Source: Pseudoalteromonas distincta (GTDB lineage: Bacteria; Pseudomonadota; Gammaproteobacteria; Enterobacterales; Alteromonadaceae). From it: DNA of 64,000 nt. Position numbers and translations under genes: made by a program. The stretch covers positions 124,001 through 188,000 of the forward strand of contig NZ_JWIG01000001.1 in assembly GCF_000814675.1 (NCBI RefSeq), in the 5' to 3' direction. Below the pieces are notes generated by a model, which did not search any database, was not told where the DNA came from, and was given only the letters and a program-made list of their open reading frames with translations. Positions 23,786 to 39,009 of the stretch are shown piece by piece (within the stretch, counting starts at the first letter, position 1; each line of letters opens with the position of its first letter).

Positions 23786-24286
23786 TTAAAAGCTCATTGT
23801 ATGGTGCGTTACATCATAATCAGTGCCATTACTTCTGGGCTTATTATGCAATATAAAATACTGAGTAAATTGTGTCTCACTCATAGCTGGCACTTTTTCA
23901 TTGGAGAGTAGTTCAGCCAGTTGCGGCGTCGTATTACTGTGCCCAATAACAACAACTACACCCTTTAGTTTGAGTAACTCATTTTTTAAATCACCTAGCT
24001 CACCTGCGTTATACACATTTAATTTGGTATTAAAATGTGCCTGCAAAGGTGCGGCTGTTTGCAACGTGCGTTTATAGTTGCTGCTAAAAAGATGTATATT
24101 TTGATGTTCTTTAAACAAAGTAACTAAATTATTTGCACGTGCCTTCCCCTCTTCTGAGAGCGCTGGGTTTTTCCCCGTTAACTTTTCGCTATGACGAAAC
24201 AAATATACCTCGTCAGGTGCGGCAAATGCCAAACTACAATTAAATGACAAGGCTAAAAAAGTGATTGCTAATATTATTTTATTCAT
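23786..24286 (-). CDS. Secreted histidine phosphatase superfamily protein
   Basis: 166-residue protein with signal peptide (1-22, ending AFA). Phosphoglycerate-mutase-like fold: phospho-acceptor H32 in LFRHSEK (RHS instead of the usual RHG), ALSEEGKARA, SSNYKRTLQTAAPL, and the second catalytic His in VVVIGHSNTT (H116). So it is a predicted periplasmic phosphomonoesterase; substrate unknown. It overlaps the serine hydrolase gene by 4 bases (ATGA), so the two are coupled. Confidence 0.85.
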   Translation of the reverse strand: MNKIILAITFLALSFNCSLAFAAPDEVYLFRHSEKLTGKNPALSEEGKARANNLVTLFKEHQNIHLFSSNYKRTLQTAAPLQAHFNTKLNVYNAGELGDLKNELLKLKGVVVVIGHSNTTPQLAELLSNEKVPAMSETQFTQYFILHNKPRSNGTDYDVTHHTMSF

Positions 24287-25437
24287 ATTTTTTTACCTCG
24301 TTTGTATTCTAATAGCCTGTCGATAAATTCAGTTGTTAATTCATTTATTACGCCGGTTTCAGCATTAACGATTAAACTAAAACCAACATTTAAGTGGGGA
24401 AACACAACCACATCGCTTCTATATCCTTGCACCCAGCCACTATGATAGTAAAGCGTTTCATCAGCGTAATTATAAACCCGCCAACCTAGTCCGTAATAAG
24501 CCTCATTAAGGTGTTTTTTCCACACCCTGCGATGCATTTCTTTTTTTGTATGTGTATAAGGACGCGTTTGCTTTGCTAGAGTATCCAATGACAAAACATC
24601 TGGGTATTGCCCTAGCTGGGCTTTTAACCAAATGGCCATGTCACTTGCACTTGCGTTTACACCCGCTGCAGGTCCCACTTTATAATAATTTTTTTTAAGC
24701 TTAGCGCTATACCAACGTTTTGTACCGCGCACGTGTGGTAATGCGTAATTTTCATCCTGAACCATAGATTCAAAACCTAAGCTGGCATCACTCATTTTTA
24801 AAGGCGCAAAAATAGTTTCTCGTAACCACTGCGCGTAACTTTTACCGCTGCTTTGTAATATCACATTACCTATAAGGCTAAACATAACATTTTGATAACC
24901 ATAACATTCGCCTGGTTTGCAAATAGGTTTAACACTAAGTAATTTTTCAACAATACTGGGGTAATCCATACGAGACTCTATCAAATTATCGTACGCATTA
25001 GGCACTAACCCACTTGCATGACTTAGAAGGTGAAATACTTTTAAATCATCTTGATAAACAGTCCCTTTGAACTCAGTTATGTAATCGCTAACAGCTTTAT
25101 CTAATTTAAGTAAACCCTCATTGGCTAATTTAGCAGATAACGAGCCTGCAAATGTTTTAGAAACAGACGCGAGCCTAAACCGGGTATGCTTATTTACTTT
25201 TTGTCCATTTCGGGTTTTAGTTACACCCATAGTATGTATGTAGTCTGAGTTATTTGTACTTACAATCGAAAGTGCAGCGCCTGGTATACCTTTATTTTTC
25301 AGTTTTTTTTGCGCATAACGGCCGTACTTTTTTACAAATGCGTCCCAATCAGGATCTGCTTTTGCTGCAAAACTCACAGAGCTAAACAACAAACACAAAG
25401 CAGGTAGGCTATACAATAAAGATTTGAGATACTTCAT
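24283..25437 (-). CDS. Secreted serine hydrolase, class C beta-lactamase / penicillin-binding protein family
   Basis: 384 residues, signal peptide 1-24. SxxK nucleophile motif S91-V-S-K94 (RLASVSKTFAG), tyrosine motif Y181-Q-N183, and HSG near residue 344 in place of KTG. This set is typical of the DD-peptidase, esterase and AmpC-like superfamily. HSG in place of KTG is common in esterase or peptidase members and argues against a classical AmpC. Probably acts in the periplasm on peptidoglycan peptides or small esters. Translationally coupled to the histidine phosphatase downstream. Confidence 0.85.
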   Translation of the reverse strand: MKYLKSLLYSLPALCLLFSSVSFAAKADPDWDAFVKKYGRYAQKKLKNKGIPGAALSIVSTNNSDYIHTMGVTKTRNGQKVNKHTRFRLASVSKTFAGSLSAKLANEGLLKLDKAVSDYITEFKGTVYQDDLKVFHLLSHASGLVPNAYDNLIESRMDYPSIVEKLLSVKPICKPGECYGYQNVMFSLIGNVILQSSGKSYAQWLRETIFAPLKMSDASLGFESMVQDENYALPHVRGTKRWYSAKLKKNYYKVGPAAGVNASASDMAIWLKAQLGQYPDVLSLDTLAKQTRPYTHTKKEMHRRVWKKHLNEAYYGLGWRVYNYADETLYYHSGWVQGYRSDVVVFPHLNVGFSLIVNAETGVINELTTEFIDRLLEYKRGKKI

Positions 25438-26354: not shown

Positions 26355-26671
26355 TTAGGGTCTGTTGATCTTTACGGATTAAAATTTGTTCAAACTAGGG
26401 GCTATTTAATCGCGGCGCGAGGTTTGTAACCTAGTGGGCTCGGTAACGGCTCCTGCGTTACCCTACTGGCTTACATCCATGTAAGAATAAGTAAAAACCG
26501 AGCAACAAAGAGTAAATAGCCCCTAGGAAGAACCCTTTGGGCAGCGCCTGTTTGGCATTAATGCTACGTTATCGCCCATTTATGGGGAATAGCCACACTG
26601 CATAGGCTCTGCCTTGCCTAAATACCAAACAGACTGCTGCAAATTTAACCTTGAAAGTTCAACAGACCTAA
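26355..26671. mobile_element. 317-bp inverted-repeat element with nested palindromes (MITE-like)
   Basis: Ends TTAGGGTCTGTTGATCTTT (26355-26373) and AAAGTTCAACAGACCTAA (26654-26671) are imperfect terminal inverted repeats. Inside, CTAGGGGCTATTTA (26395-26408) and TAAATAGCCCCTAG (26513-26526) pair exactly, GGTAACG/CGTTACC forms a smaller hairpin, and CTGTTTGG (near 26548) pairs with CCAAACAG (near 26625). No open frame. It begins one base after the lipoprotein stop and fills the gap before the mipA-like gene. Confidence 0.8.
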
Positions 26672-26756
26672 CACTTACTACATTTTTTTACAGATTAAAG
26701 GAACGAATTAACAATATACTACGCTTAATAACAAATAATAATTAGGCCCTATAGGG

Positions 26757-27614
26757 ATGAGAAACACTTTGCTTAACCATACTTTAGTGAGCATAACATT
26801 GCTTTTTTGCTTTATTTTTAGCACCACAAGTATGGCAAGTAATCGCTATTATGCAGACAATACGTTAGAACCAACCCAAGGCTTTGCCTGGGACTGGAGT
26901 GCTGGTGCGGGCTTTTATATTGAAGATTCCTACCTAATCGGTATCGAATCTTACGATAAAGGCGTTGAGCTTGATTTAAGTCTTGCTGTTTCTTACGATA
27001 AATTTTATCTTGATTTTGACCACAATCAACTCAGCGGTGGCCTTGTAATTGGTTACAGTCTTATAGATAAATTTGATTGGGGCTTAGATATACTTGGCAC
27101 AAATACTCAAGCCGGGTTTGACGAAAAAGGCCTCGGGTTTTATAACCACGGTGTTATAAAAGAACTCCAAGGTATTAAAAAACGTAATTACGATTTTGAT
27201 GTTGGTCTTAGGCTCTCGCGCCGATTTGAAAACTCACAATTCTCCTTTGAATATCTTCATGACGTATCTGGTGCCCATAATGGCTGGGTTATAAATAGCT
27301 TTTTTAGCCACATTTTGCCATGGCGAAACTGGGAGTTTAGATCTGGTGTTGGTTTAAGCGCCTACTCTGCTGACTTTACCAATTATTACTTTGGCATTGA
27401 TAGCGATGAAGCCACCAGCCTTCGCCCGATTTATAGCAGCAATGCCAGTACTAGTATCATCTTTGAGTTCCATGCTGAATATCCAATAAGCCAAGATTGG
27501 GTGTTTTTATCCGGTTGGCTTACTACATGGTTTTCAAAAGAAATTGACGACAGTCCAATTATTTCCCAAGGATATCAACATAAAGCCAAGGTAGGCCTAC
27601 GTTATGTATTTTAG
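26757..27614 (+). CDS. MipA/OmpV family outer-membrane protein (module A)
   Basis: 285 residues, signal peptide to about 27 (SMA-SNRYY). The rest is beta-strand-rich, with WDWSAGAGFYIEDSYLIG, SGGLVIGYSLIDKFDWG, SFEYLHDVSGAHNGW and final KVGLRYVF, a BAM signal. This is the MipA/OmpV family pattern; family members are outer-membrane proteins implicated in murein-synthase scaffolding or antimicrobial response. The stop overlaps the next start by 11 bases. First of a four-gene unit (OMP, DUF3019, regulator, kinase) repeated at 35434-38671. Confidence 0.82.
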   Translation: MRNTLLNHTLVSITLLFCFIFSTTSMASNRYYADNTLEPTQGFAWDWSAGAGFYIEDSYLIGIESYDKGVELDLSLAVSYDKFYLDFDHNQLSGGLVIGYSLIDKFDWGLDILGTNTQAGFDEKGLGFYNHGVIKELQGIKKRNYDFDVGLRLSRRFENSQFSFEYLHDVSGAHNGWVINSFFSHILPWRNWEFRSGVGLSAYSADFTNYYFGIDSDEATSLRPIYSSNASTSIIFEFHAEYPISQDWVFLSGWLTTWFSKEIDDSPIISQGYQHKAKVGLRYVF

Positions 27615-27987
27615 ATGGATCTGGGTATTACTGATCTTTCCCAGTACCTTTACTGTTAAAGCGCAGGACCCCCCTGAAGCACTCATAGCACTACCCGACA
27701 CTTGCGTTGCACTGCGCGAAGGGCGTAATTGCTATGCCGATGTTACACTTACGTGGGAGCAGCCTATCATTGGTAATTACTGCCTACGCGATGCAACTTC
27801 AAAGTACATTATGCAATGTTGGCTAAAGCAACAAAGTGGTACTTTTAATTATGCTTTTGACTCACAGCAAAGCATTTCATTTGAACTATTTGATAGCAAT
27901 ACATCCAAAGTCATCAGTACAGCAGAAGTAAAACTACAGTGGGTTTATCAAAACAGACAAAAAAAACGCCGCTGGCGACTATTTTAA
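27604..27987 (+). CDS. DUF3019-type periplasmic protein (module A)
   Basis: 127 residues with a signal peptide (1-20, VKA-QDPP). Four cysteines (C34, C43, C60, C72) and the motif IMQCWLKQQSGTFNY are shared with the module B protein at 37414-37794, and both end in a strongly basic tail (QKKRRWRLF here). Predicted to be periplasmic with two disulfides. Function is not known. Being sandwiched between an outer-membrane protein and a two-component pair suggests a role as signal carrier or modulator of the kinase; that is inference. Confidence 0.78.
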   Translation: MYFRWIWVLLIFPSTFTVKAQDPPEALIALPDTCVALREGRNCYADVTLTWEQPIIGNYCLRDATSKYIMQCWLKQQSGTFNYAFDSQQSISFELFDSNTSKVISTAEVKLQWVYQNRQKKRRWRLF

Positions 27988-28011
27988 TACCAATTGCATT
28001 AGGGATATTTT

Positions 28012-28716
28012 ATGGATAACTACGGCACTATTTTACTTGTTGAAGACGATGCATCACTAGCGCAATGGGTTGCTGAATATTTAACAGAGCAAGGCTATAC
28101 AACGCATGTTTGTCATCGTGGTGACGAAGTTGTTAGCAAGGTCAAAACGTTAAACCCAAATATTGTGCTCCTTGATATTATGCTCCCGGGGCAAGATGGT
28201 ATCAGCGTATGTAGAGAGCTTCGTAGCTTTTATAATTCGCCTATTATAATGCTCACCGCACGCGATGAAGAGATGGATGAAGTTATTGGTTTAGAAGTTG
28301 GCGCAAGCGACTACATAATGAAACCGGTGCGTCCGCGTGCATTGCTAGCGCGCATAAAAGCAGCACTGCGTCAAAACAATGAGCCAAATAAGCCACAGGT
28401 TAGCCAAAGCGTTATTCAAGTTGGTGCACTTAGTATTAATACCGAATCTAGAAATGTGACCCTTAACGAGCAAGATATAAACATATCAAGCGCCGAATAT
28501 CTATTATTACACTACCTAGCGAGCAATGCAGGTCAAGTTGTCTCACGCGATGCCGTATTTAAAGCGACGAAAGGTAGAGAGTACGACGGGCTTGATAGAA
28601 GTGTTGATGTACTTATTTCTGCACTTCGTAAAAAATTTAATGATGATCCACAAAACCCCGAAAAAATTAAAACTATTTGGGGCCGTGGATATTTACTTGT
28701 TTCTACCGCGTGGTAA
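28012..28716 (+). CDS. OmpR/PhoB-family response regulator (module A)
   Basis: 234 residues: receiver (about 5-118) with acidic pocket VEDD (10-13), phospho-acceptor D55 in VLLDIMLPG, TAR and K in IMKPVRP; winged-helix DNA-binding domain (about 134-232) with SAEYLLLHYLASN, GREYDGLDRSVDVLISALRKK, IKTIWGRGYLL. Resembles RstA-type regulators. 24 bases after the DUF3019 gene, 19 bases before the kinase. Probable autoregulation of the operon is inferred. Confidence 0.93.
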   Translation: MDNYGTILLVEDDASLAQWVAEYLTEQGYTTHVCHRGDEVVSKVKTLNPNIVLLDIMLPGQDGISVCRELRSFYNSPIIMLTARDEEMDEVIGLEVGASDYIMKPVRPRALLARIKAALRQNNEPNKPQVSQSVIQVGALSINTESRNVTLNEQDINISSAEYLLLHYLASNAGQVVSRDAVFKATKGREYDGLDRSVDVLISALRKKFNDDPQNPEKIKTIWGRGYLLVSTAW

Positions 28717-28735
28717 TAGAGCGATGAATAAATAA

Positions 28736-30028
28736 ATGAAAAAGTTTTATATATCGCTTCTAGGCAGTGCACTTTTATCTATTGTGGTATTGGGCTGGCT
28801 TATTGATGCTTTTAGTCAACAAGCGCATACCCCACAAGATGAGTTTAGTCAGCAAAGTAAAATGATCATGGGTTTTAATAAGCAGTTAGCTAACATACCT
28901 ACATCTGAGCGCAGCGATTATGTAAAACAACTAGCCCGAGAGTTTGATGTTTTAATTGACTACAAGCCAAATGAGTCACTCGCTTTACCACCTTCTTTAT
29001 TATTACAAATGCACACGCCAGGTGGGCTGATTTTAGAGGATCAGCAAGGCTTTTATATGCTTTATAGTAGCGACGTTTTAAATCCTTTTCACTTATCAAT
29101 GCGTTTAGATAAAATTTTTGATAGCGAGCAGCATAACGACATTATATTAACTCTACTATTTTACGCAGGCCTATGTGTATTTATGGGGTTTATTATCGCG
29201 CCCTTAGCTAAACGGCTAACTGTCTTAAATGAAGCCGCTAAAAAGTTTGCCTCTGGTAATGTTCAAGCCCGAATAAAGGTATCGCACTTTACCTATATAA
29301 AAGATGTAGAACTTACTTTTAACCGCATGGCTAGCCAAATAGAGAAACTTGTCGCCGAAAACAAACTAATGGCCTCAAGCTTGTCTCACGACATCCGCAC
29401 CCCTATCGCGTGCCTGCGATTTGGTTTAGATGCGGCATTAGATAGCCATGATGAGCAAAAAGTAAAACAGTATTTAACTCGTATGGAGAACGATTTAGAT
29501 CATATGGAATCGATGCTTAGTAGCTATTTAGCATTTGCTACATTAGAGCAAAACGCGAATAAACTAACCTATTCATCAACCAATATTAAATCCTACCTTG
29601 AAGATATTTTAGTTCAACTTGCACCAAAACTTGAAATGCAAATGCTCAACGTACAACTCAATAGTACAGATAAAATAATCAATGCAGATCTTCACTGGCT
29701 GGCTCGTGCAATTACTAACTTATTAACTAACGCATGTGATTTTGCAAACCAACATATTTACCTCAGTGCAAAGTTACACGAGCAACAGCTTATAATAACG
29801 GTAGAAGATGACGGCCCTGGTATCGCACAAGAAAACTTTAATAACGTATTTAGCCCATTTTTTAGAGAGGAAGATCACCGTAACAGAGCCGATAAGAGTT
29901 ATGGCCTTGGCTTAGCCATTGTTACCAAAGTAGCTGATTGGCATCATGGCAGCGTTAAAGTAAGTAAAAGCACCCAGTTAGGTGGTGCGTGCTTTACTCT
30001 CACTATTGCACAGCACCATAATCCGTAA
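28736..30028 (+). CDS. Sensor histidine kinase (module A)
   Basis: 430 residues. Transmembrane segments about 5-23 and 137-157 bracket a periplasmic domain of roughly 110 residues. HAMP (about 158-208), HisKA with H218 in SLSHDIRTPIACL (Asp rather than the common Glu after His), N-box NLLTNACDFAN, G1 VEDDGPGI and G2 YGLGLAIV. RstB-like layout. Partner is the upstream response regulator. The N-box KYT element is replaced by DFA, a difference from the module B kinase. Confidence 0.93.
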   Translation: MKKFYISLLGSALLSIVVLGWLIDAFSQQAHTPQDEFSQQSKMIMGFNKQLANIPTSERSDYVKQLAREFDVLIDYKPNESLALPPSLLLQMHTPGGLILEDQQGFYMLYSSDVLNPFHLSMRLDKIFDSEQHNDIILTLLFYAGLCVFMGFIIAPLAKRLTVLNEAAKKFASGNVQARIKVSHFTYIKDVELTFNRMASQIEKLVAENKLMASSLSHDIRTPIACLRFGLDAALDSHDEQKVKQYLTRMENDLDHMESMLSSYLAFATLEQNANKLTYSSTNIKSYLEDILVQLAPKLEMQMLNVQLNSTDKIINADLHWLARAITNLLTNACDFANQHIYLSAKLHEQQLIITVEDDGPGIAQENFNNVFSPFFREEDHRNRADKSYGLGLAIVTKVADWHHGSVKVSKSTQLGGACFTLTIAQHHNP

Positions 30029-30232
30029 AGCAATAGTTACAGACTGTAATTAACAATTATTAAACAAAATCAACTCGTTATTTTAAACGACTTAATAACA
30101 ACAATTAAAATCGATGGTTATAACATACACTTTACTTATTAATTTGTGCTAGATCAGCAAATAAGCACTTTTTATTTTTTTACATTTCCAGTAGATTGTC
30201 ACCGCCGTCACACAATAGAGAAGTACAATAAT

Positions 30233-31588
30233 ATGAGCGCAGTTAGAGGCGAGTTTAGCTCTCGCTTTGGTTTTATTATGGCCGCCGCGGGTTCTGCCGT
30301 TGGTTTGGGCAATATTTGGGGATTCCCTACACAAACAGCAAGTAATGGCGGTGCTGCATTTTTAGTCGCATATTTAGTCCTTGCGTTCTTTTTAGCCTAC
30401 CCCGCTTTAATGGCTGAACTTATGATTGGACGTCATGGCCAAGCAAACGCAGTGTCATCACTTAAAAAAATATCTAATAAGCCATGGCAAAAACACTTTG
30501 CCTTTGCTGTTGGTTTTGGCGGTATTTTATGCGCTGGCTTTATACTAAGCTTTTACGCCATTGTTGCCGGTTGGATGCTCAGCGCCACAGCTGAACCCAT
30601 AGCCACTTTAGTTGGTGCCAACACAGCATCTACATGGTTAAGCGAGCAATCACTTACTCGAAATATTATATTCACTATGATCTTTATCGTACTAACTGTC
30701 GCTATTATAAGTAGAGGCGTTGAAAACGGTATTGAGAAGTGGTCTAAGCGTTTAATGCCTGCACTTTTAGGCATTTTATTTGCACTTATTGCTTATGTGA
30801 TGACGCAAGATGGTGCTATGGAAGGCTTAAAAGCCTACTTAGTTCCTGACTTTTCATCTATTTTTGACGCAAAACTATTAGTAAGTGCACTAGGGCAAGC
30901 TTTCTTCTCTTTATCGCTTGGCACTAGCGTAATGATTATTTACGGCTCGTACATTAGTAAAAAAGAAAACCTCGTTTCTTTAGGTGCCTATGTGACCCTT
31001 ATTGATGTATTTATAGCCTTTGTTGCAGGTTTACTGATTATTCCGGCTATGTACGTAGCACAAGCTCAAGGCGTTGAAATATTCTCGGCCACAACGGGTA
31101 AGCTACTCTCTGAAGATACATTAGTGTTTCAGGTACTCCCCGCTTTATTTGATGGAATGGGCGAAGTTGGCTTATTTGTGGGTTTTTCATTTTTTGCGTT
31201 AATGAGTATTGCCGCTTTAACATCATCTATTTCAATGTTAGAGGCGCCAGTATCATACACCGTAGAGCGCTTTGGGATGAAACGCGTTCAAGCAACGTGG
31301 TTAATTGGGGCGCTAATCGCTGTCGTCAGCATTACAATTGTGTGTAACCTTAGCAGCTTATTTGGCTTAGTAATCACTCTCACTACAAAAGTAGCTCAGC
31401 CTTTACTTGGTCTTATGTGTTGTATATTTGTAGGCTGGATTTGGTATAGAGGCTCATTACTAAAAGCAATTCAAGAGGGTAACCCTGAAGTTCACAATAC
31501 ATTGTTTTGGAAAATATGGCCTTGGTATACTAAGTTTGTATGTCCACTGGCTATTGGCATGGTGTTTTTACATTCACTATTGAGCTAA
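30233..31588 (+). CDS. Sodium-dependent transporter, NSS/SNF family
   Basis: Na+-coupled importer of amino acids or related solutes; 451 residues, about 11-12 transmembrane helices. The Na+ site motif GSAVGLGNIWGFP at the N-terminus is diagnostic of NSS (LeuT/SNF) proteins; also SLSLGTSVMIIYGSY and ALTSSISMLE. I take the ATG at 30233 (MSAVRGEFSSRFGF), with GAGAAG upstream, rather than an in-frame start 29 codons earlier. It follows the module A kinase but with a 204-base gap. The substrate cannot be assigned. Confidence 0.92.
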   Translation: MSAVRGEFSSRFGFIMAAAGSAVGLGNIWGFPTQTASNGGAAFLVAYLVLAFFLAYPALMAELMIGRHGQANAVSSLKKISNKPWQKHFAFAVGFGGILCAGFILSFYAIVAGWMLSATAEPIATLVGANTASTWLSEQSLTRNIIFTMIFIVLTVAIISRGVENGIEKWSKRLMPALLGILFALIAYVMTQDGAMEGLKAYLVPDFSSIFDAKLLVSALGQAFFSLSLGTSVMIIYGSYISKKENLVSLGAYVTLIDVFIAFVAGLLIIPAMYVAQAQGVEIFSATTGKLLSEDTLVFQVLPALFDGMGEVGLFVGFSFFALMSIAALTSSISMLEAPVSYTVERFGMKRVQATWLIGALIAVVSITIVCNLSSLFGLVITLTTKVAQPLLGLMCCIFVGWIWYRGSLLKAIQEGNPEVHNTLFWKIWPWYTKFVCPLAIGMVFLHSLLS

Positions 31589-31620
31589 ATGATACCTTAG
31601 CCTTAAAATAGTTTTAAATA

Positions 31621-31648
31621 AAATAGCCCACATTAGTGGGCTTTTTTA
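31621..31648. terminator. Bidirectional terminator between NSS transporter and elaA-like gene
   Basis: AGCCCAC (31625-31631), loop ATTA, GTGGGCT (31636-31642), then T-run; A-rich on the other side. Confidence 0.85.
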
Positions 31649-31666
31649 TAGCTGCTTCAATTGGAT

Positions 31667-32116
31667 TCATTGAGTGAGTTTTAAAATCATATCTTGATGA
31701 GGTATACCGTCTTCTAGATATTCACTTTTGTAATCTTCAAAGCCAAAGGAGCGGTAAAAATCAAGTAAATAGGTTTGTGCGCCAATATAAATATCTCGTT
31801 CAGGCCACCGCTCTTTACAGCACTCTATAGCTTTACTTACAAGTAAAGTGGCGTCGCCTTTGCCACGCGCACTTTTACTTACCAGCACGCGCCCTATTGC
31901 GCTGTATTGCTCATTTTTTTCGTAGCATCGCGCATAAGTGTGTAGCCGCCCATTGTCTAATGTATATAAATGCTGTGTATTTAAATCAATATCTACATCA
32001 TCAAGTTCAGGGTAAGGACACGCCTGCTCTACAACAAATACGTCTACACGTCCTCGCATAATAGTAAAAAGAGTATGCGCATCTAAAGCTTTAAACTGAT
32101 CACATTTAAATTGCAT
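31667..32116 (-). CDS. elaA: ElaA-family GNAT N-acetyltransferase
   Basis: 149 residues with the ElaA opening (FKALDAHTLFTIMRGRVDVFVVEQACPYPELDDVD) and acetyl-CoA-binding motif RVLVSKSARGKGDATLLV. ElaA proteins are GNAT acetyltransferases of uncertain substrate. ATG at 32114-32116 has AGGA 6 bases upstream, better than the UUG six codons earlier. Single gene between convergent NSS transporter and a Spo0M-like gene on the same strand. Confidence 0.88.
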   Translation of the reverse strand: MQFKCDQFKALDAHTLFTIMRGRVDVFVVEQACPYPELDDVDIDLNTQHLYTLDNGRLHTYARCYEKNEQYSAIGRVLVSKSARGKGDATLLVSKAIECCKERWPERDIYIGAQTYLLDFYRSFGFEDYKSEYLEDGIPHQDMILKLTQ

Positions 32117-32185
32117 TTTAAATCCTATAAACAATAAACCCAGCCTAGGCCGGGTTTAATAAAATTATTCACTTGTTAGTTTATA

Positions 32186-32929
32186 TTAAGCAAACAAGCG
32201 CTCTAGTTGGTCGCACAACTGCGATAAATTCACGTGGTCATGCTCTATGGTCAAATCTACATAACCATCGCCTCTAAAGGCCCTGTCTAGCTCTATAAGC
32301 ACATGTGTTTTATGTGCCTCTGGTACAAATGACAACTCAATCTCTTGAATGCCAAATAAACTACGGCTATTTGGCTTATATTCAAGTTCCTGATAACAGC
32401 CCGATAACGATTGAAATGTTGAAGCGCGCAAATGGCCTTTTTCTACATCAGCCTTCATTAAGCTAAAACCTAGCTTTTCCATCGCCTGCATGCACGTTTT
32501 AACAGCTTCATTAGGGTAAATATGTAAATGGTCTTTATCGCTCGGATCAAGTGCTAAATCAATATCCAAACCGGTTTCAAGCCACACATGAGATTGATTG
32601 TAACCTGCATTAATTTCTGTAATAGGTGTTTCAGAATGAAGACGTGCTTCAAAAGGGATACTTTTAACTTCGCCCGGCTCAATTGTACCTATATCTGTAA
32701 TTCGCCATTGGTCAATCACATGATTGGTAAAATAATCGCCATCATCACCTGCCACTTTAACACGGGTCATAAGTAATAAATCTAAGCCAGCAATATCTTG
32801 GCTAACATCACCTGCGGTAATGACTATTTGTGCATTAAAAAGCTGACCAGGTTGTAGGTGTTCAGTCTCTAAAACAGTATCTACTTTTGCAGCACCAATA
32901 CCTACCGACGCTAAAATCTTTTTAAACAT
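32186..32929 (-). CDS. Spo0M-like (SpoOM) family protein
   Basis: 247-residue cytoplasmic protein of the family named from Bacillus Spo0M. Seen: MFKKILASVGIGAAKVDTVLE, PGQLFNAQIVITAGDVSQDI, and IELDRAFRGDGYVDLTIEHD. Family members have an arrestin-like N-terminal fold. In non-sporulating gammaproteobacteria the role is unknown, perhaps envelope or motility related. It stands alone with its own leader (32930-33195 contains no other gene). Confidence 0.85.
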   Translation of the reverse strand: MFKKILASVGIGAAKVDTVLETEHLQPGQLFNAQIVITAGDVSQDIAGLDLLLMTRVKVAGDDGDYFTNHVIDQWRITDIGTIEPGEVKSIPFEARLHSETPITEINAGYNQSHVWLETGLDIDLALDPSDKDHLHIYPNEAVKTCMQAMEKLGFSLMKADVEKGHLRASTFQSLSGCYQELEYKPNSRSLFGIQEIELSFVPEAHKTHVLIELDRAFRGDGYVDLTIEHDHVNLSQLCDQLERLFA

Positions 32930-33195
32930 ATATTTCTCCTTAAGCTGAGCGGTTCTATTATTTGCTCTCGCTTAAACTTCTTCGTTATCGCATCTTAACC
33001 ATATTTAAAAGCCAATGTCAGTGAAAAAATGTTATTTACATACTATTTACGATTAAATATATGTTTGATGCGCATTTTTTATACACAGCTAGGCAAGTAT
33101 TTGATTAGACGCGTTCATTTTTAGGTCTATTTTTATTTTCAATGGTATAAATTTTTCGTTACACTGCAACCCCAAATGAAGTGATATTAAGAATT

Positions 33196-34770
33196 ATGGA
33201 ACTAATCTATTTTGCCGCCGCGTTTGTGTGTGGCTTTGCTGTTTATCAGTTAAAGCTGCCTCCTCTTATTGGATTTTTATTAGCAGGTTTTGCTTTAAAT
33301 TTATCGGGTTATAAAAGTACGGAGTTGCTCGATACAATAGCAGCACTTGGCGTAACCCTTCTTCTTTTTAGTATTGGTTTAAAGCTAAAGGTAAACAGTT
33401 TAATTAAACCCCAAGTGTGGGCGCCTGCAACATTGCATATTATTTTTAGCAGCGCGCTTTTTAGTGGCTTTATGTTATTGCTTGGTGTTTTCGCTATTCC
33501 ACTGTTTATTGATTTAAGTTGGCAAAGTGCTTTATTAGTTGGGTTTGCGCTTAGTTTTTCAAGTACTGTATTTGCAGTAAAAGTGCTTGAAGAACGCGGA
33601 GAAATGGCAAGCCTTCACGGTAAAATAGCCATTGGAATACTAGTCATGCAAGATATCTTTGCTGTTATCTTTTTAGCGATTAGTACAGGTAAAATTCCAA
33701 ATGTATGGGCAATTGCATTAATAATTGCTCTGCCTTTATTACGACCTGTCATGTATGGCGTATTAAATCGCTCTAAACATGGTGAACTATTACCATTATT
33801 TGGTTTTTTCTTTGCTTTAGTTGCTGGTTATCATGCATTTGAATTTGCAGGATTAAAAGGCGACCTAGGCGCACTGATAATTGGGATGATGTTTGCACCA
33901 CATAAAAAAGCAGGAGAACTATCAAAATCTCTGCTTAATTTAAAAGACATATTACTAGTCGGTTTTTTCTTAAGTATTGGCTTAAGCGCAGAGCTAACCA
34001 CTAGCTCATTAATCGTTGCTATTATACTTGTTTTAGTTTTACCTATTAAAATAGCGCTTTATTACGTGTTCACAAATATATTCAAACTACGCGCGCGTAC
34101 ATCATTACTTACCGCCTTTAGTTTATCTAACTACAGTGAATTTGGGTTAATTGTATGTGCAGTAGCGGCTAGCACAGGCATGATCACTTCTGAGTGGCTG
34201 GCCGTAATGGCAATTGCTGTTTCTATTACCTTTGTAATTGCCTCGCCGTTAAATAAGCGCTCAAACGAGCTATACGTAAAAATAGAGCACTGGCTATTAA
34301 AGTTTGAAAGCAAAACTCGTTTAGCTGAAGAGCTACCCGTTAACCTAAACGATACTAAGATAGTCATTTTTGGTATGGGACGTATTGGTACTGGTGCTTA
34401 TGAAACAATCAACGCGACTCACCCAAATGTTGTTGCAGGCATAGATATAAAACCTGAAGTGGTAGATAAACACGTTAACAGAGGCCGCAACGTCTTAATT
34501 GCTGATGCAACAGATCCTGACTTTTGGCAACGAGTAAATCATTCGCAAGTAGAAATGGTCATGCTTGCAATGCCAAAGCATATGCAAAATATTTTTGCGC
34601 TAGAGCAACTACAAGCCTCAGGTTATAAAGGCCAAGTAACAGCTATTGCAAACTACCCTGATCAACAAAAAGAGCTAGAAGAAATGGGTGTTCATTCTAC
34701 TTATAACTTTTACTTAGAAGCAGGTAGTGGTTTTGCAGAGCACGTTAAACAAGAGCTATTTAACGAATAA
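33196..34770 (+). CDS. Kef-type cation:proton antiporter with TrkA-N domain
   Basis: 524 residues. N-terminal CPA2 antiporter domain, about 12 helices (PPLIGFLLAGFALNLSG, LLLFSIGLKLKV, DLGALIIGMMFAPHKKAGELSKSLLNLKDILLVGFFLSIGLS with its conserved acidic and Gly residues), then a TrkA-N/RCK domain from about 385 (KIVIFGMGRIGTGAYETI, Rossmann). Family role is K+ or Na+/H+ exchange. It lacks a TrkA-C domain. ATG at 33196; GUG five codons upstream is alternative. Ends with its own terminator. Confidence 0.88.
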   Translation: MELIYFAAAFVCGFAVYQLKLPPLIGFLLAGFALNLSGYKSTELLDTIAALGVTLLLFSIGLKLKVNSLIKPQVWAPATLHIIFSSALFSGFMLLLGVFAIPLFIDLSWQSALLVGFALSFSSTVFAVKVLEERGEMASLHGKIAIGILVMQDIFAVIFLAISTGKIPNVWAIALIIALPLLRPVMYGVLNRSKHGELLPLFGFFFALVAGYHAFEFAGLKGDLGALIIGMMFAPHKKAGELSKSLLNLKDILLVGFFLSIGLSAELTTSSLIVAIILVLVLPIKIALYYVFTNIFKLRARTSLLTAFSLSNYSEFGLIVCAVAASTGMITSEWLAVMAIAVSITFVIASPLNKRSNELYVKIEHWLLKFESKTRLAEELPVNLNDTKIVIFGMGRIGTGAYETINATHPNVVAGIDIKPEVVDKHVNRGRNVLIADATDPDFWQRVNHSQVEMVMLAMPKHMQNIFALEQLQASGYKGQVTAIANYPDQQKELEEMGVHSTYNFYLEAGSGFAEHVKQELFNE

Positions 34771-34797
34771 TCACTTTTTATAACGTCTATAAATAAC

Positions 34798-34828
34798 AAA
34801 GCCTTAAAATCATTAAGGCTTTGTTATT
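34798..34828 (+). terminator. Terminator after the Kef-type antiporter gene
   Basis: AAAGCCTTAA, loop of 5, TTAAGGCTTT (34798-34822), followed by GTTATTAG TTTTT. Lies 28 bases past the stop. Confidence 0.8.
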
Positions 34829-35013
34829 AGTTTTTAAATGAAAAGCAATTCTATTTACATTCCTTTACAAGCCATTTCACCACGACCATAAAAAACAGGT
34901 AGACTATACATGTTGGTTAAATAAAAACCCATGTTCTAATAATAACTTAATTAGATCCCAGCTAATTAAAGTTCAACTAGGTTTATATTAATCAACAAAA
35001 AATTATTAAATCA

Positions 35014-35073
35014 GAGGGCCTACTCCCTCGCAAAATAGGCTGTTTCTTGCCCGTCACAGCCTATTTTATATTT
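35014..35073 (+). ncRNA. Tandem hairpins ending in a terminator-like stem (candidate small RNA 3' end or DUF3820 leader)
   Basis: First hairpin GAGGG/CCCTC (35014-35029). Second, AAAATAGGCTGT (35032-35043) pairs exactly over 12 bases with ACAGCCTATTTT (35056-35067), followed by ATATTTCT. The previous gene already has a terminator at 34798-34828, so a transcript ending here would start in 34830-35010, where no ORF lies. Alternatively it is part of the leader of the next gene, 54 bases downstream. Confidence 0.4.
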
Positions 35074-35120
35074 CTAAAATCCCTTACACTTACGCAGACT
35101 TTAAAACCTAAGTAACTCTT

Positions 35121-35342
35121 ATGGATCCAAAACAATTAAAAATAGCTGTAAATACAACGATGCCTTTTGGGAAATATGCTGGGCGCCCTTTATTACTACT
35201 ACCAGAACCTTATTTGGTGTGGTTCAAACAGCAGGGATTTCCTGACTCAAAACTTGGTAGCCAACTAGCGATGATGTATGAGGTTAAACTAAATGGCCTT
35301 GAGCAAATGTTAATGCCATTACTTGAAAAAAATAAAAAATAA
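35121..35342 (+). CDS. DUF3820 family small protein
   Basis: 73 residues with the DUF3820 core: MPFGKYAGRPLLLLPEPYLVWFKQQGFP (key residues MPFGKYxG, LPxxYLxWF). These small cytoplasmic proteins are widespread in gammaproteobacteria and of unknown function; some resemble putative nucleotide or exonuclease-associated domains. Single gene with its own leader and terminator. Confidence 0.85.
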   Translation: MDPKQLKIAVNTTMPFGKYAGRPLLLLPEPYLVWFKQQGFPDSKLGSQLAMMYEVKLNGLEQMLMPLLEKNKK

Positions 35343-35406
35343 TTGAGAACTTTTTTAAATACTTGCGGTCTATTATATTGCTACTTGTTGATTTTGGTTT
35401 TTAACC

Positions 35407-35437
35407 GCAAAAAAAGCGCCTTAGGCGCTTTTTTTAT
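35407..35437. terminator. Bidirectional terminator between DUF3820 gene and module B kinase
   Basis: AAAAAGCGCC (35411-35420), loop TTA, GGCGCTTTTTTT (35424-35435). Its T-run overlaps the kinase stop codon (TAA, complement of 35434-35436). Confidence 0.92.
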
Positions 35438-36681
35438 GTCTTAAATTTGAGAGGTAAATATACAATAAATTTAGCACCACCTAAGCTTGAGCTTTCTGCT
35501 TTACACTCTCCTTGGTGCCACGACACAATTTTAGCCACTATAGCAAGCCCTAAACCAAAGCCACCAGTGTCCTTGCCTCTACTTTTATCTAATCGAGTAA
35601 AAGGCTTAAATACGTTTTCTCGCTCAACGGGGTCAATCCCTTCACCATCATCTTCAACAATCAATACTATGTGAGTTGCCTCTTGTAGCAATGAAATTTT
35701 GACTTGCTGATGAGTATATTTGAGCGCATTGCCAATTAAATTTTGAAATACTCGCGCCATAAAATGGCTATCACAGTAGTAATTTAAATGCTCAGGGAGG
35801 TTTATAGAGAGTGTTGTTCTAGCTTCAAAATTTAGCTTTTCAACAGTGGTTTTTACCAGCCCAGCTAAATCGCAGTTTATTGGCTGTAAACTTGGTTGTT
35901 GAGAGTCTAATCGCGCGTATTCAAGCATTTCAGAGACTAGTGACTCAAGCTCGCTAATGTCTGTTTGCATATTGGTTAGGTATTTTTCGCCTTTTTCATC
36001 AAGCATTTGATCTTGTAACATTACAATTGCAAACTTTAAACGTGCTAATGGCGTTCTAAACTCATGCGATACCGATGAGGTAAGTTCTTGCTGTGCACTA
36101 AGCAAAAACTCAATACGTTGCTGCATTACTTTTAGTGTATCAGTTATAGGTAAAAAGAAAGACTTAGAAGAGTCATTTAGTTGAAAGTCTTGCAAACCCT
36201 CTACCGCTTCACACGCTTTACGTAGCTTTGCAAAGTCACGCCAGAGTAAAAAGCTCCATAGCCCAACTGGTATACCTACAATAATAAGTAGTAATAAATA
36301 CGGCCAAACGGAAGATGATTGCTGCGTTAATACACCTACCGGTCCTACTTGAAGTAATGAATCATTACCGAGATCTACATACCAAACAATGCGTTGTTGC
36401 TTATCATACAAATATAAGTAGTGGTTTTTATTTAGCTGCGATTGTTGTTTTTGAGGGAGTATTAAATCCCGTCGTTCAATCACTTTACTTTCAAAGTTAT
36501 GCTTTAGCTTTTTAAGACCATTTGGGGTTTGCGAAAGCAACCAGAGTGATTGCCCAAACTCATCGTCTAAGAAGACCTGCTGCTGTGACTCTTCATAGGG
36601 CCACAGCTGCTCAATAACACCACTTACAACAAATAATGAAACAATGATATATAAGTATAAGCTGGTAAACAGTTTTCCCAT
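35434..36681 (-). CDS. Sensor histidine kinase (module B)
   Basis: 415 residues; transmembrane segments about 5-22 and 127-147 with a roughly 100-residue periplasmic domain between; HisKA H206 in SVSHEFRTPLARL, N-box NLIGNALKYTH, G1 VEDDGEGI, G2 GFGLGLAIV. RstB-like layout. It follows its response regulator by 25 bases. Paralogue of the kinase at 28736-30028, but clearly divergent, especially in the periplasmic part, so the two probably sense different cues. Confidence 0.94.
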   Translation of the reverse strand: MGKLFTSLYLYIIVSLFVVSGVIEQLWPYEESQQQVFLDDEFGQSLWLLSQTPNGLKKLKHNFESKVIERRDLILPQKQQSQLNKNHYLYLYDKQQRIVWYVDLGNDSLLQVGPVGVLTQQSSSVWPYLLLLIIVGIPVGLWSFLLWRDFAKLRKACEAVEGLQDFQLNDSSKSFFLPITDTLKVMQQRIEFLLSAQQELTSSVSHEFRTPLARLKFAIVMLQDQMLDEKGEKYLTNMQTDISELESLVSEMLEYARLDSQQPSLQPINCDLAGLVKTTVEKLNFEARTTLSINLPEHLNYYCDSHFMARVFQNLIGNALKYTHQQVKISLLQEATHIVLIVEDDGEGIDPVERENVFKPFTRLDKSRGKDTGGFGLGLAIVAKIVSWHQGECKAESSSLGGAKFIVYLPLKFKT

Positions 36682-36706
36682 TACAGCCGATTAACCTTAA
36701 ATAGTT

Positions 36707-37399
36707 CTAGAGATCCCACGCATCAGAAACAAATAAATAGCCTTGTCCCCATACGGTTTTTATACGATACGGCTTATCGCTGTTGTCGCCTAATTTTTTA
36801 CGAATTCGTGATACGCGTACATCCACAGTTCTATCAAGTCCGTCGTATTGGCGGCCAATCATATGTTGGTGCACATGCTCTCTGCTTAGTACTTCACCCG
36901 CATTTGACGCTAATAACCATAGTAACTCAAACTCGTGCGAAGTTAATACAATCTCTGAATCACTTAGTTTTACAATACGGCTTGTTTTATCGATGACTAA
37001 ATCACCAAACTGCAGTTCTTCACTAGATTTTACTATTGGTTGCCCACGTCGAAGTAATGCATTGATCCGCGCTAGTAATACACGTGGCTCTGCTGGTTTT
37101 ATTACATAATCATCAGCACCAAGTTCTAAACCAAGCACTTGGTCGAAGTCTTCACCTTTAGCAGTCAACATTAAAATTGGTAGAGTAAATTTATCTCTTA
37201 CTTGGCGGCAAACGCTAAAGCCATCTTTACCTGGCAGCATAACGTCTAGAATCATTAAATCGGGTGTATTGTTTTCTAGGTAATTAAACACTTCGTCACC
37301 ACGGTCTAGTACTTCGACTTCAAGGCCATTATGTTCAAGGTAATCTTTTGTTAGCTGTTGTAAACCGAGATCATCTTCAACAAGTAAAATTTTTGGCAT
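36707..37399 (-). CDS. OmpR/PhoB-family response regulator (module B)
   Basis: 230 residues: receiver with VEDD, phospho-acceptor D52 (MILDVMLPG), K in VIKPAEP, then winged helix with TSHEFELLWLLASN, GRQYDGLDRTVDVRVSRIRKK and IKTVWGQGYLF. RstA-like. Its ribosome site AGGAG is well placed. Shares GDEV in the receiver and the YDGLDR(S/T)VDV recognition region with the module A regulator, so their DNA sites may be alike. Confidence 0.95.
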   Translation of the reverse strand: MPKILLVEDDLGLQQLTKDYLEHNGLEVEVLDRGDEVFNYLENNTPDLMILDVMLPGKDGFSVCRQVRDKFTLPILMLTAKGEDFDQVLGLELGADDYVIKPAEPRVLLARINALLRRGQPIVKSSEELQFGDLVIDKTSRIVKLSDSEIVLTSHEFELLWLLASNAGEVLSREHVHQHMIGRQYDGLDRTVDVRVSRIRKKLGDNSDKPYRIKTVWGQGYLFVSDAWDL

Positions 37400-37413
37400 T
37401 AGTTGCTCCTAAA

Positions 37414-37794
37414 TTAAAAAAAGCTCCACGGAGAGCGAAGCCTACGCCTATTTTTTTTAGCATGGGCGCTTTGTACTTCAACCTGTGTTTTTGCTATTAA
37501 CACACCCGTATGAGGATTGATTAAGGAGTATATGGTCTCCACCTGAACACGCGCTTTATAATTAAATTGCCCAGAACGCTGCTGCTGCCAGCATTGAAGT
37601 AGTTGTTCTTGTTGATACAAACAGACATCACTATAGGTGTTTAATAGCCATTTAAACTGTAAATCAAGATCGCAAAAATCCTGCTGTTCGGAAACCACGC
37701 AGACTTTTGGAGAAACACTAAAAATAGGGGTTTGTGCCACACTAAAACCACTAAAAAAAGTGGTAATAAACACAACTAATATTGAATACTTCAT
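37414..37794 (-). CDS. DUF3019-type periplasmic protein (module B)
   Basis: 126 residues, signal peptide 1-20 (SVA-QTP). Cysteines C32, C41, C58, C68 match the spacing of the module A protein (9 and 17 residues for the first two gaps), and LLQCWQQQRSGQFNYK aligns with its IMQCWLKQQSGTFNY. Basic C-terminus (KKNRRRLRSPW). Predicted periplasmic with disulfides; function unknown. One base after the mipA-like stop and 14 bases before the regulator, so in one operon. Confidence 0.78.
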   Translation of the reverse strand: MKYSILVVFITTFFSGFSVAQTPIFSVSPKVCVVSEQQDFCDLDLQFKWLLNTYSDVCLYQQEQLLQCWQQQRSGQFNYKARVQVETIYSLINPHTGVLIAKTQVEVQSAHAKKNRRRLRSPWSFF

Positions 37795-37795
37795 A

Positions 37796-38671
37796 TTAAA
37801 AAGTACGATCGAATCCTATAAATGCAGTCATTGAATAAGTACGTTCAAAGAGCGGACTGCCATCCATAGCCGAATAGTCGTAATATGCTACATGAAAACG
37901 AAGAGAGTCAGCCTTACTCAGTGGCCAACGGGCGTCGATTTTAGCATAAGGTTGCCAACTACTACCAACGTCTATTTTGCCAAATTGAGTTTCACCCTCA
38001 TTAAGTCCATAAAAATAGCTATTTAGTTCCGCAGATTTATAGTTTATTCCAAGTGTTGGCTTTATTTTAAGCTTTCCTAGCACAGTATGATATTGCCACT
38101 GCAATGCACCGCGTACACCTCGATAAACATCGGTTATATCATGCAGAGCCTGAACTGAAAAAACATGGTCTTCATTTACATAGTGATATGCAATACCCGC
38201 ATCCAAGGCAATTTGCCGTTTATGCAAATTATCAATATCAGCGTAGCGAGAGGACGAGGCTTCATTTTGCATTGCAAACTGATTATTAAGTGCACTACTT
38301 TGCAATGCAAATACATTTTTAGGGTGCCAGTCTATAAAAAAGCGAGATTCAGAGTTGAGTTCACTAACTAGATTAAAGTGATGCTTTGGGGATTGTGAAA
38401 ATGAATAGCCAAGGCGGCCATTATCAAAAAACCATTGCTCTGCATAAAACGCAATTTGTGGAATAAGCACAAGGGGAATATTATCTCCACCATGCAAAGG
38501 GTTGGTTATAACTCCAACCCCAACGCTTAAACTCAAATGCAGACGATCGGTTGTTATATCTTGCTCTGTATAATCGTCAGCATGCTTGCTTGCCTGTGTT
38601 GCTTGCACCGAAAGGCAAGCACACAAAGTGCTAAAACATAGAGCAGTTAATAAGGAGAAGGAATACCGCAT
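37796..38671 (-). CDS. MipA/OmpV family outer-membrane protein (module B)
   Basis: 291 residues, signal peptide about 1-24 (VQA-TQAS). Beta-rich: LHLSLSVGVGVITNPLHGGDN (key: GVGVxxNPLHGG), FYAEQWFFDNGRLGYSF, ALDAGIAYHYVNEDHVFSV, and final MTAFIGFDRTF with terminal Phe. MipA/OmpV pattern, including the substrate-pocket-like LVLIPQIAFYAEQWF. First gene of the module B operon, transcribed leftward. Low overall similarity to the module A homologue beyond the family features. Confidence 0.82.
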   Translation of the reverse strand: MRYSFSLLTALCFSTLCACLSVQATQASKHADDYTEQDITTDRLHLSLSVGVGVITNPLHGGDNIPLVLIPQIAFYAEQWFFDNGRLGYSFSQSPKHHFNLVSELNSESRFFIDWHPKNVFALQSSALNNQFAMQNEASSSRYADIDNLHKRQIALDAGIAYHYVNEDHVFSVQALHDITDVYRGVRGALQWQYHTVLGKLKIKPTLGINYKSAELNSYFYGLNEGETQFGKIDVGSSWQPYAKIDARWPLSKADSLRFHVAYYDYSAMDGSPLFERTYSMTAFIGFDRTF

Positions 38672-39009
38672 CAGCGTACATCAAAGAATTAAATTAAGTA
38701 AGTTCCCCATACTAGCAAGGTCTTTTTAAACTAGCTCTAGCTGGTTACAATTATTCACAATTTGTATACACAAATGTTAACTTTTATGTTTTTAAAGTGA
38801 CAAACCCTTCAAATTAGTTATGTGCGTTGGCTAAGCTAGTAGTGCTTTGAGAAACTTTGGAAATGAGGGATAACCTGGCAAATGCTTTAATTCAAATAAA
38901 ATCTGCAGGAAGCCAACTCTAACAACTTTATTTTATTAACCTTACAGCCTACTAGGTTACCAAAGTTAATAGCGGCTTTAGCCGTAATAAATCAAGCATC
39001 TGATGCTTA
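38672..39009. other. Intergenic region upstream of module B
   Basis: Holds the module B promoter region and the 3' end of the diguanylate cyclase gene. ATTTGT-ATAC-ACAAAT (38760-38775) is a small palindrome about 90 bases before the mipA-like start and is a candidate operator. Two short hairpins (AGCGGCTTTAGCCGT near 38970 and AAGCATCTGATGCTT near 38995) could end the cyclase transcript. No gene seen. Confidence 0.4.

Follow-up and report, generated by a model that had tools for sequence, protein, structure and literature searches.

Two convergent MipA/OmpV-DUF3019-two-component modules in Pseudoalteromonas distincta are copies of a conserved four-gene unit and possible envelope-sensing circuits

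Two copies of one four-gene module are found on a 64,000-nucleotide stretch of the Pseudoalteromonas distincta genome (RefSeq assembly GCF_000814675.1, contig NZ_JWIG01000001.1, positions 124,001 to 188,000; the whole stretch is referred to here as the window, and coordinates are those of the window unless a locus is named). Both modules have the identical gene order of MipA/OmpV outer-membrane protein (mipA), DUF3019 protein, OmpR-type response regulator and histidine kinase according to Pfam. Module A (26757-30028, forward strand) and module B (38671-35434, reverse strand) are convergent, with 5.4 kb between them. In module A mipA and the DUF3019 gene overlap by 11 bases and the later gaps are 24 and 19 bases, while the gaps of module B are 1, 14 and 25 bases. 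Coordinates and Pfam matches thus confirm the original prediction, made from the sequence alone, that the same four genes occur twice in the same order with overlaps or gaps under 26 bases. The features of the locus are as follows.

26679..26692, forward strand: putative regulator box of module A, TACATTTTTTTACA, a tandem TACA of the RstA-box type upstream of mipA (from sequence)
26715..26720, forward strand: TATACT, likely to be the promoter -10 element for module A, 22 nt beyond the box (from sequence and alignment)
26757..27614, forward strand: mipA of module A, MipA/OmpV outer-membrane barrel with 12 predicted strands (PF06629, AlphaFold, PDB match)
27604..27987, forward strand: DUF3019 protein of module A, with a likely signal peptide, a four-Cys body and a cationic tail (PF11456)
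27940..27984, forward strand: C-terminal 15 residues of DUF3019 A, with the end sequence RQKKRRWRLF and a net charge of +6
28012..28716, forward strand: OmpR/RstA-like response regulator of module A, Asp55 (Pfam, NCBIfam)
28736..30028, forward strand: histidine kinase of module A, His218, periplasmic part estimated at 112 residues with net charge -8
35434..36681, reverse strand: histidine kinase of module B, His206, periplasmic part estimated at 105 residues with net charge -2
36707..37399, reverse strand: OmpR/RstA-like response regulator of module B, Asp52 (Pfam, NCBIfam)
37414..37794, reverse strand: DUF3019 protein of module B (PF11456)
37417..37461, reverse strand: C-terminal 15 residues of DUF3019 B, with the end sequence RRRLRSPWSFF and a net charge of +6
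37796..38671, reverse strand: mipA of module B, MipA/OmpV barrel (PF06629)
38709..38714, reverse strand: TAGTAT, likely to be the promoter -10 element for module B (from sequence and alignment)
38744..38760, reverse strand: likely regulator box of module B, TTGTGAATAATTGTAAC, an imperfect tandem TGTG/TGTA in the orientation opposite to box A

Both MipA proteins match PF06629 across the domain (117.6 bits for A and 99.8 for B, cut-off 24.2) and both DUF3019 proteins match PF11456 (92.8 and 92.1 bits, cut-off 25); no matches to either family beyond these two each were found in the 4.53 Mb genome. Against the Vibrio OmpV equivalog NF045789 of NCBIfam, which has a cut-off of 400 bits, MipA A and B score 75.2 and 38.4 bits. 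The regulators consist of Response_reg and Trans_reg_C and the kinases of HisKA and HATPase_c, and the catalytic residues (Asp55/Asp52, His218/His206, kinase N and G boxes) are present in both modules. The top NCBIfam match of regulators and kinases alike is RstA/RstB. Scores of 248.6 and 253 bits for the regulators (RstA NF007977, cut-off 330) and of 217.9 and 245.5 bits for the kinases (RstB NF007898, cut-off 478) are below the equivalog cut-offs; we therefore retain the name RstAB-like from the original prediction and do not assign these proteins to RstAB itself. Identity between the modules is 22.3% for MipA, 27.9% for DUF3019 and 29.4% for the kinase versus 50.0% for the regulator, in agreement with the predicted strong divergence of the first three and similarity of the regulators.

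The four-gene set is a conserved evolutionary unit, as adjacency in most loci and agreeing trees indicate. DUF3019 was detected in all 108 genomes of the genus, in 77 of 345 in the order sample, in 8 of 274 in the class sample and in 18 of 398 in the phylum sample, all 18 lying inside the class (the share of the 398 outside the class is not stated). MipA was detected in 232 of the 345 order-sample genomes including every one of the 77 with DUF3019 (hypergeometric P 3e-16), while 155 of the 345 have MipA without DUF3019. The fetched 1.5 kb flanks of the 30 best-scoring MipA genes contained DUF3019 in no case and a kinase in three. Since all 77 genomes with DUF3019 have MipA, versus the 155 with MipA alone and the 30 flanks free of DUF3019, it is DUF3019 that goes with MipA and not the reverse. 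For the order and class samples, each match was retrieved together with flanks of up to 4 kb; in L056 the flank towards mipA covered only about 1.6 kb. Of 128 DUF3019 matches from the order search we counted 122, leaving out the window's own two (G000), two of G139 that were counted in the class set, one partial gene at a contig end (L136) and one in a single frame with the regulator (L159). In 117 of these 122, mipA directly precedes DUF3019, and 104 have the exact order MipA-DUF3019-regulator-kinase. Such counts had been proposed as a check of the original prediction, and they do not show chance adjacency in a few genomes. The class set is similar, with seven of eight DUF3019 genes in the exact order and the eighth having two-component genes before mipA.

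The exceptions in the order sample comprise three loci with doubled mipA, two genes that form one tandem, one locus without a clearly detected regulator, seven in which MipA-DUF3019 stands alone in the strict cluster (one extra gene precedes the regulator in five of these), and five without mipA, four of which keep regulator and kinase and one the regulator only. In L081 and L083, the other two of these seven, the MipA-DUF3019 pair is kept with tail charges of +6 and +7, and two-component genes were not seen in the fetched stretch. A PF00144 serine hydrolase gene lies between DUF3019 and regulator in L065, and an extra protein of 230-244 aa occupies the same place in L118, L122 and L123 (three genomes, two genera); the L123 protein, the one scanned of the three, has weak outer-membrane-barrel matches. 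In L159 (3761-5038 of that locus) DUF3019 and the response regulator share a 426 aa open frame, and because the assembly is fragmentary a fusion and a sequencing error are indistinguishable there. The mipA frame of Pseudoalteromonas sp. TB64 (L010:3056-4287) is apparently split, while the other three genes were matched in full.

Trees were computed for 129 modules with all four genes present and a kinase of at least 330 aa, among them the window modules and 12 further Pseudoalteromonas A loci; the exceptional loci are absent from this set because all four genes were required. Pairwise distance matrices of the four proteins are correlated with Mantel r of 0.73-0.87 (0 of 999 permutations). The joint tree places A in a subfamily of 32 inside a clade of 53, termed A super, and B in a subfamily of 21. 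A super was recovered exactly by all four single-gene trees with support of 0.975-0.999, and the B subfamily exactly by three of them and with a Jaccard index of 0.95 by the DUF3019 tree. The MipA+DUF3019 tree has 66 strong splits, of which 2 conflict with strong splits of the regulator+kinase tree. The topologies of the four proteins, disagreement among which would have spoken against the original prediction, thus largely agree.

Subfamily A spans five bacterial families and subfamily B two, so A and B parted before the genus Pseudoalteromonas arose. Support for where exactly the window's module B sits inside subfamily B is weak (0.22). At least 43 of the 108 genus genomes, counted among 150 matches listed that cover 90 of these genomes, have two convergent DUF3019 genes separated by 9.4-13 kb; all 43 pairs have the same orientation, and they are counted as DUF3019 gene pairs, each not assigned to one A and one B. 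The relatives of DUF3019 A in the named genome collection number 12, all Pseudoalteromonas. Outside the genus, nine genomes contain both A-type and B-type modules, in no case side by side: one has them at about 80 kb, and eight have them on different contigs, where distance is not determinable. Since A and B belong to different old subfamilies, the data do not support that the pair arose by a recent local inverted duplication. Nor do the different subfamilies and the nine outside genomes support the old inverted duplication of the original prediction; a very old one may lie at the root of the tree.

DUF3019 is predicted from its sequence to be a small secreted protein with a cationic-aromatic C-terminal tail, and its body probably has an Ig-like fold. 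Its four Cys are invariant in all 129 aligned modules. The last 15 residues have a mean net charge of +4.8 in 139 DUF3019 proteins with mipA before them, and of 0 to +3 in the five without mipA (Mann-Whitney P 1.7e-4; 6e-4 with genus means). A weaker tail charge in the absence of mipA, despite retained two-component genes, ties DUF3019 to MipA. The AlphaFold model of MipA A has 12 strands (pLDDT 88.2), and its PDB matches are barrels, the best being the nucleoside channel Tsx (E 6.5e-7). The MipA model of Pseudomonas aeruginosa is likewise 12-stranded (PMC10936184). Inward residues of MipA A were roughly estimated as 15 acidic versus 7 basic, and an acidic residue stands at MipA position 86 in 85% and at position 169 in 81% of the 129 modules. 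Median net charges are -14 for MipA, -7 for the periplasmic part of the kinase and +5 for the DUF3019 tail, all relative to the module set alone and not to other barrels or kinases. No publications on DUF3019 were found in the literature library searched; its four invariant Cys, predicted Ig-like body and cationic-aromatic tail, weaker without adjacent mipA, are new in this work.

The RstA consensus is TACATNTNGTTACA (PMC4117788). Judged by sequence, box A would be an exact and box B an imperfect tandem TACA site of this type. Box A is exactly conserved upstream of mipA in 10 of the 12 other Pseudoalteromonas A loci and has one spacer change in L014, and box B varies at two positions only among eight aligned Pseudoalteromonas B promoters. 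Exact TACA-n6-TACA occurs in 52 of 129 module promoters versus 4 of 387 coding stretches (A 15/32, A2 12/21, B 8/21, D 15/24). The count in A orthologues is partly circular because the box was first spotted there by eye; circularity does not affect the other subfamilies or an unbiased count of spaced 4-mer pairs, which omitted nine of these orthologues. In the 120 promoters of that count TACA-n6-TACA ranked top with 44 occurrences versus 1.7 expected, the best shuffled pair at n6 spacing reaching 16. Four second sites excepted, the box has forward orientation in subfamilies A and A2 and reverse orientation in B and D. Exact boxes before 52 of the 129 modules suggest autoregulation.

In five subfamily D loci (L101, L107, L111, L115, L121), 48 bp separate two TACA-type boxes upstream of mipA. 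They lie in a divergent region shared with a subtilase gene, as if there were one box per gene. Just upstream of box A, positions 26359-26668 hold an element whose 28-nt terminal inverted repeats are imperfect (79%) and which resembles a miniature transposable element beside the regulatory box; similar sequence is present at the same place in L006 and by alignment absent from most other orthologues.

Genes flanking the modules were clustered, with Pfam run on some representatives and BLAST at 1e-6 with one representative each. A divergent secreted S8 subtilase adjoins the module in 17 of 24 subfamily D loci, and two more have it nearby on the same strand (five genera). A divergently adjoining PF09826 beta-propeller protein was found in 11 of 21 B loci and 8 of 31 C loci, and an adjoining TonB receptor in 11 of 32 A loci; in L144 a TonB receptor occupies the place of the missing mipA. 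No subtilase, beta-propeller or TonB receptor partner adjoins modules A and B of the window.

The operon structure, the joint divergence of the genes, the box, the predicted folds and the tail with its lower charge in the absence of mipA are computational results; direct contacts, the signal, the direction of signalling and the sign of regulation are inferred. With slightly better than even confidence, we propose that each module is a self-contained envelope-sensing circuit in which MipA and DUF3019 form a co-sensor feeding the module's own kinase. MipA would be a 12-stranded outer-membrane barrel of acidic make-up, and the cationic-aromatic tail of DUF3019 would engage either MipA or anionic lipopolysaccharide (LPS) at MipA. 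The MipA-DUF3019 state would change in response to a cationic antimicrobial peptide or to something that disturbs the outer membrane in a similar way. The kinase would receive this change through its periplasmic part, and the regulator would become phosphorylated. The regulator would then bind the tandem TACA box before mipA and raise the whole operon, and in other genomes might also raise the TonB receptor or the secreted subtilase or beta-propeller protein encoded next to it. Divergence of their parts and boxes would keep the two copies apart. The circuit of barrel, periplasmic protein, kinase and regulator put forward in the original prediction remains the best reading given adjacency and trees. 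A more specific version, which we consider doubtful, is that the Arg/Trp/Phe tail mimics a cationic antimicrobial peptide and at rest occupies an anionic MipA site or MipA-presented LPS phosphates, so that real peptides would displace the tail and the released body would switch the kinase.

Several observations weigh against such circuits. Subfamily C is poorly recovered in all four single-gene trees (Jaccard 0.65-0.71), the DUF3019 tree also recovers A2 (0.52) and D (0.62) poorly, and only 2 of 31 C promoters have the exact box. The difference in tail charge was noticed post hoc on five genes in four genera, has a P of 0.014 with the last 10 residues only, and is blurred by 23 of the 139 DUF3019 with mipA that also have tails of +3 or less; tail charge is weakly correlated with the charge of MipA (-0.31) or of the kinase (-0.26). 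By rough estimate the MipA lumen is just mildly acidic (median -3, range -10 to +4), and the acidity of module B is lower (-7 for MipA and -2 for the kinase part). A regulon scan of the own genome stayed at control level (box A 9 versus 5 for the reversed box, box B 6 versus 7). This genome has no member of the PF09826 beta-propeller partner family, no peptide-resistance gene was recognised among the neighbours (Pfam having been run on four of them), and the Vibrio mimicus authors doubt that OmpV acts with CarRS and hold it to be independent (PMC13413815).

It is possible, though in our judgement unlikely, that MipA and DUF3019 are outputs only: the periplasmic part of the kinase would sense directly, and the operon would raise two envelope-protective proteins with the two-component genes last. 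Indeed, mipA is the first gene behind the box, direct regulation of ompV by CarR has been reported in Vibrio cholerae (PMC9178039), and a MipA/OmpV gene belongs to the regulon of the polymyxin-responsive BesRS system of Burkholderia thailandensis (PMC9426598). The 155 order-sample genomes with MipA and no DUF3019 also fit, as do 27 of the 30 best-scoring MipA genes, which have neither kinase nor regulator in the fetched flank. However, joint divergence of all four genes exceeds what an output needs, tail charge is lower where mipA is missing though the two-component genes stay, and deletion of mipBA in P. aeruginosa abolishes the induction of mexXY-oprA by ParRS (PMC10936184).

The recurrent subtilase (D), PF09826 beta-propeller (B, C) and TonB receptor (A) neighbours, together with Tsx, a nucleoside channel, as the best match of the MipA model, would suit a nutrient or polymer sensor: secreted enzymes would release peptides or glycans for MipA to bind or let in, and the neighbouring hydrolase or TonB receptor would be under the control of the module. 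We find this improbable, as both modules of this genome are without such a neighbour, the part common to all subfamilies is the tailed DUF3019 and not a substrate-specific part, and the MipA/OmpV loci with two-component systems in the cited literature answer to cationic peptides. We give very little credence to a cell-wall assembly module with MipA as a scaffold for murein enzymes and DUF3019 reporting on them. This would account for the MipA family name, which comes from interaction with MltA, and the discussion of PMC10936184 cites a proposal on MltA/PBP1b, but the recurrent neighbours, only some of which were Pfam-annotated, included none recognised as a murein enzyme.

The closest parallels to an envelope-sensing circuit of this kind are MipA-MipB-ParRS of P. 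aeruginosa and CarRS-OmpV of Vibrio, with DUF3019 a different and apparently undescribed partner. P. aeruginosa MipA binds polymyxins, and ParRS-dependent induction of mexXY-oprA is lost on mipBA deletion; two-component genes flank mipA in most cases, the mipB link is limited to Pseudomonas, and for ParRS and CprRS the peptide-sensing mechanism is called unknown (PMC10936184). Linkage of a MipA gene to an OmpR-type two-component system is found in both of our modules, and the likeness extends to a 12-stranded MipA/OmpV barrel, a secreted partner, regulator and kinase at one locus, and a regulator that raises the barrel gene, as we propose here. Unlike DUF3019, which takes its place here, MipB is a beta-lactamase-fold lipoprotein; no gene of this kind was found in the mipA operons of the modules, the nearby PF00144 gene lying outside the operon. 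Furthermore, parRS forms an operon apart from mipBA and shows no induction, whereas the four genes here form one run and exist in several old paralogous versions.

In Vibrio carRS(vprAB)-ompV-virK an OmpV gene is again linked to an antimicrobial-peptide two-component system, though in the order carRS, ompV, virK, and the available text does not mention DUF3019 (PMC13413815, PMC9178039). V. cholerae CarR binds the ompV promoter region (PMC9178039). None of our four genes was named virK by Pfam or NCBIfam, no virK model having been searched. RstA/RstB is alike in the best NCBIfam matches of both regulators and both kinases and in the tandem TACA box, and differs in that all four scores fall short of its cut-offs; RstAB is not known to have a MipA or DUF3019 partner gene. 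RcsF-OmpA and NlpE-CpxA are known cases in which an outer-membrane or periplasmic protein relays a surface signal to an inner-membrane kinase, and we liken them to DUF3019 by role alone and not by sequence or structure. The NlpE analogy has been drawn for the MipA system (PMC10936184). BesRS resembles the modules as a polymyxin-responsive system with a MipA/OmpV gene in its regulon, but that gene has a different locus tag and is shown as part of the regulon, not as a co-sensor, and the term DUF3019 is absent from the available text (PMC9426598). The view of the original prediction that the complete unit has no described function thus stands for DUF3019 in the literature searched, while MipA/OmpV with a two-component system has been described (PMC10936184, PMC13413815, PMC9178039).

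DUF3019 is a small candidate for the missing periplasmic messenger between peptides at the outer surface and Gram-negative kinases, because it never occurs without MipA in the genomes of the sampled order and diverges jointly with barrel, kinase and regulator. It may also serve as a MipA partner in another large set, beside the Pseudomonas-limited mipB. DUF3019 copies without mipA and with a weaker tail offer a natural comparison, and the neighbours suggest subfamily-specific outputs. If the tail were indeed an internal decoy, its competitive displacement would add a new principle of sensing, shared by about five old paralogous gammaproteobacterial circuits with separate wiring, some with their own outputs.

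Other genes were seen around the two modules. Upstream of module A, on the other strand and outside the operon, are a PF00144 serine hydrolase (24283-25437), a similar one being matched in 8 of 12 Pseudoalteromonas loci, and a small protein named by eye as histidine-phosphatase-like (23786-24286). Between modules A and B lies a Spo0M-like protein, also named by eye (32186-32929), and a similar-looking protein is found in L134 beside a DUF3019-regulator-kinase set without mipA.

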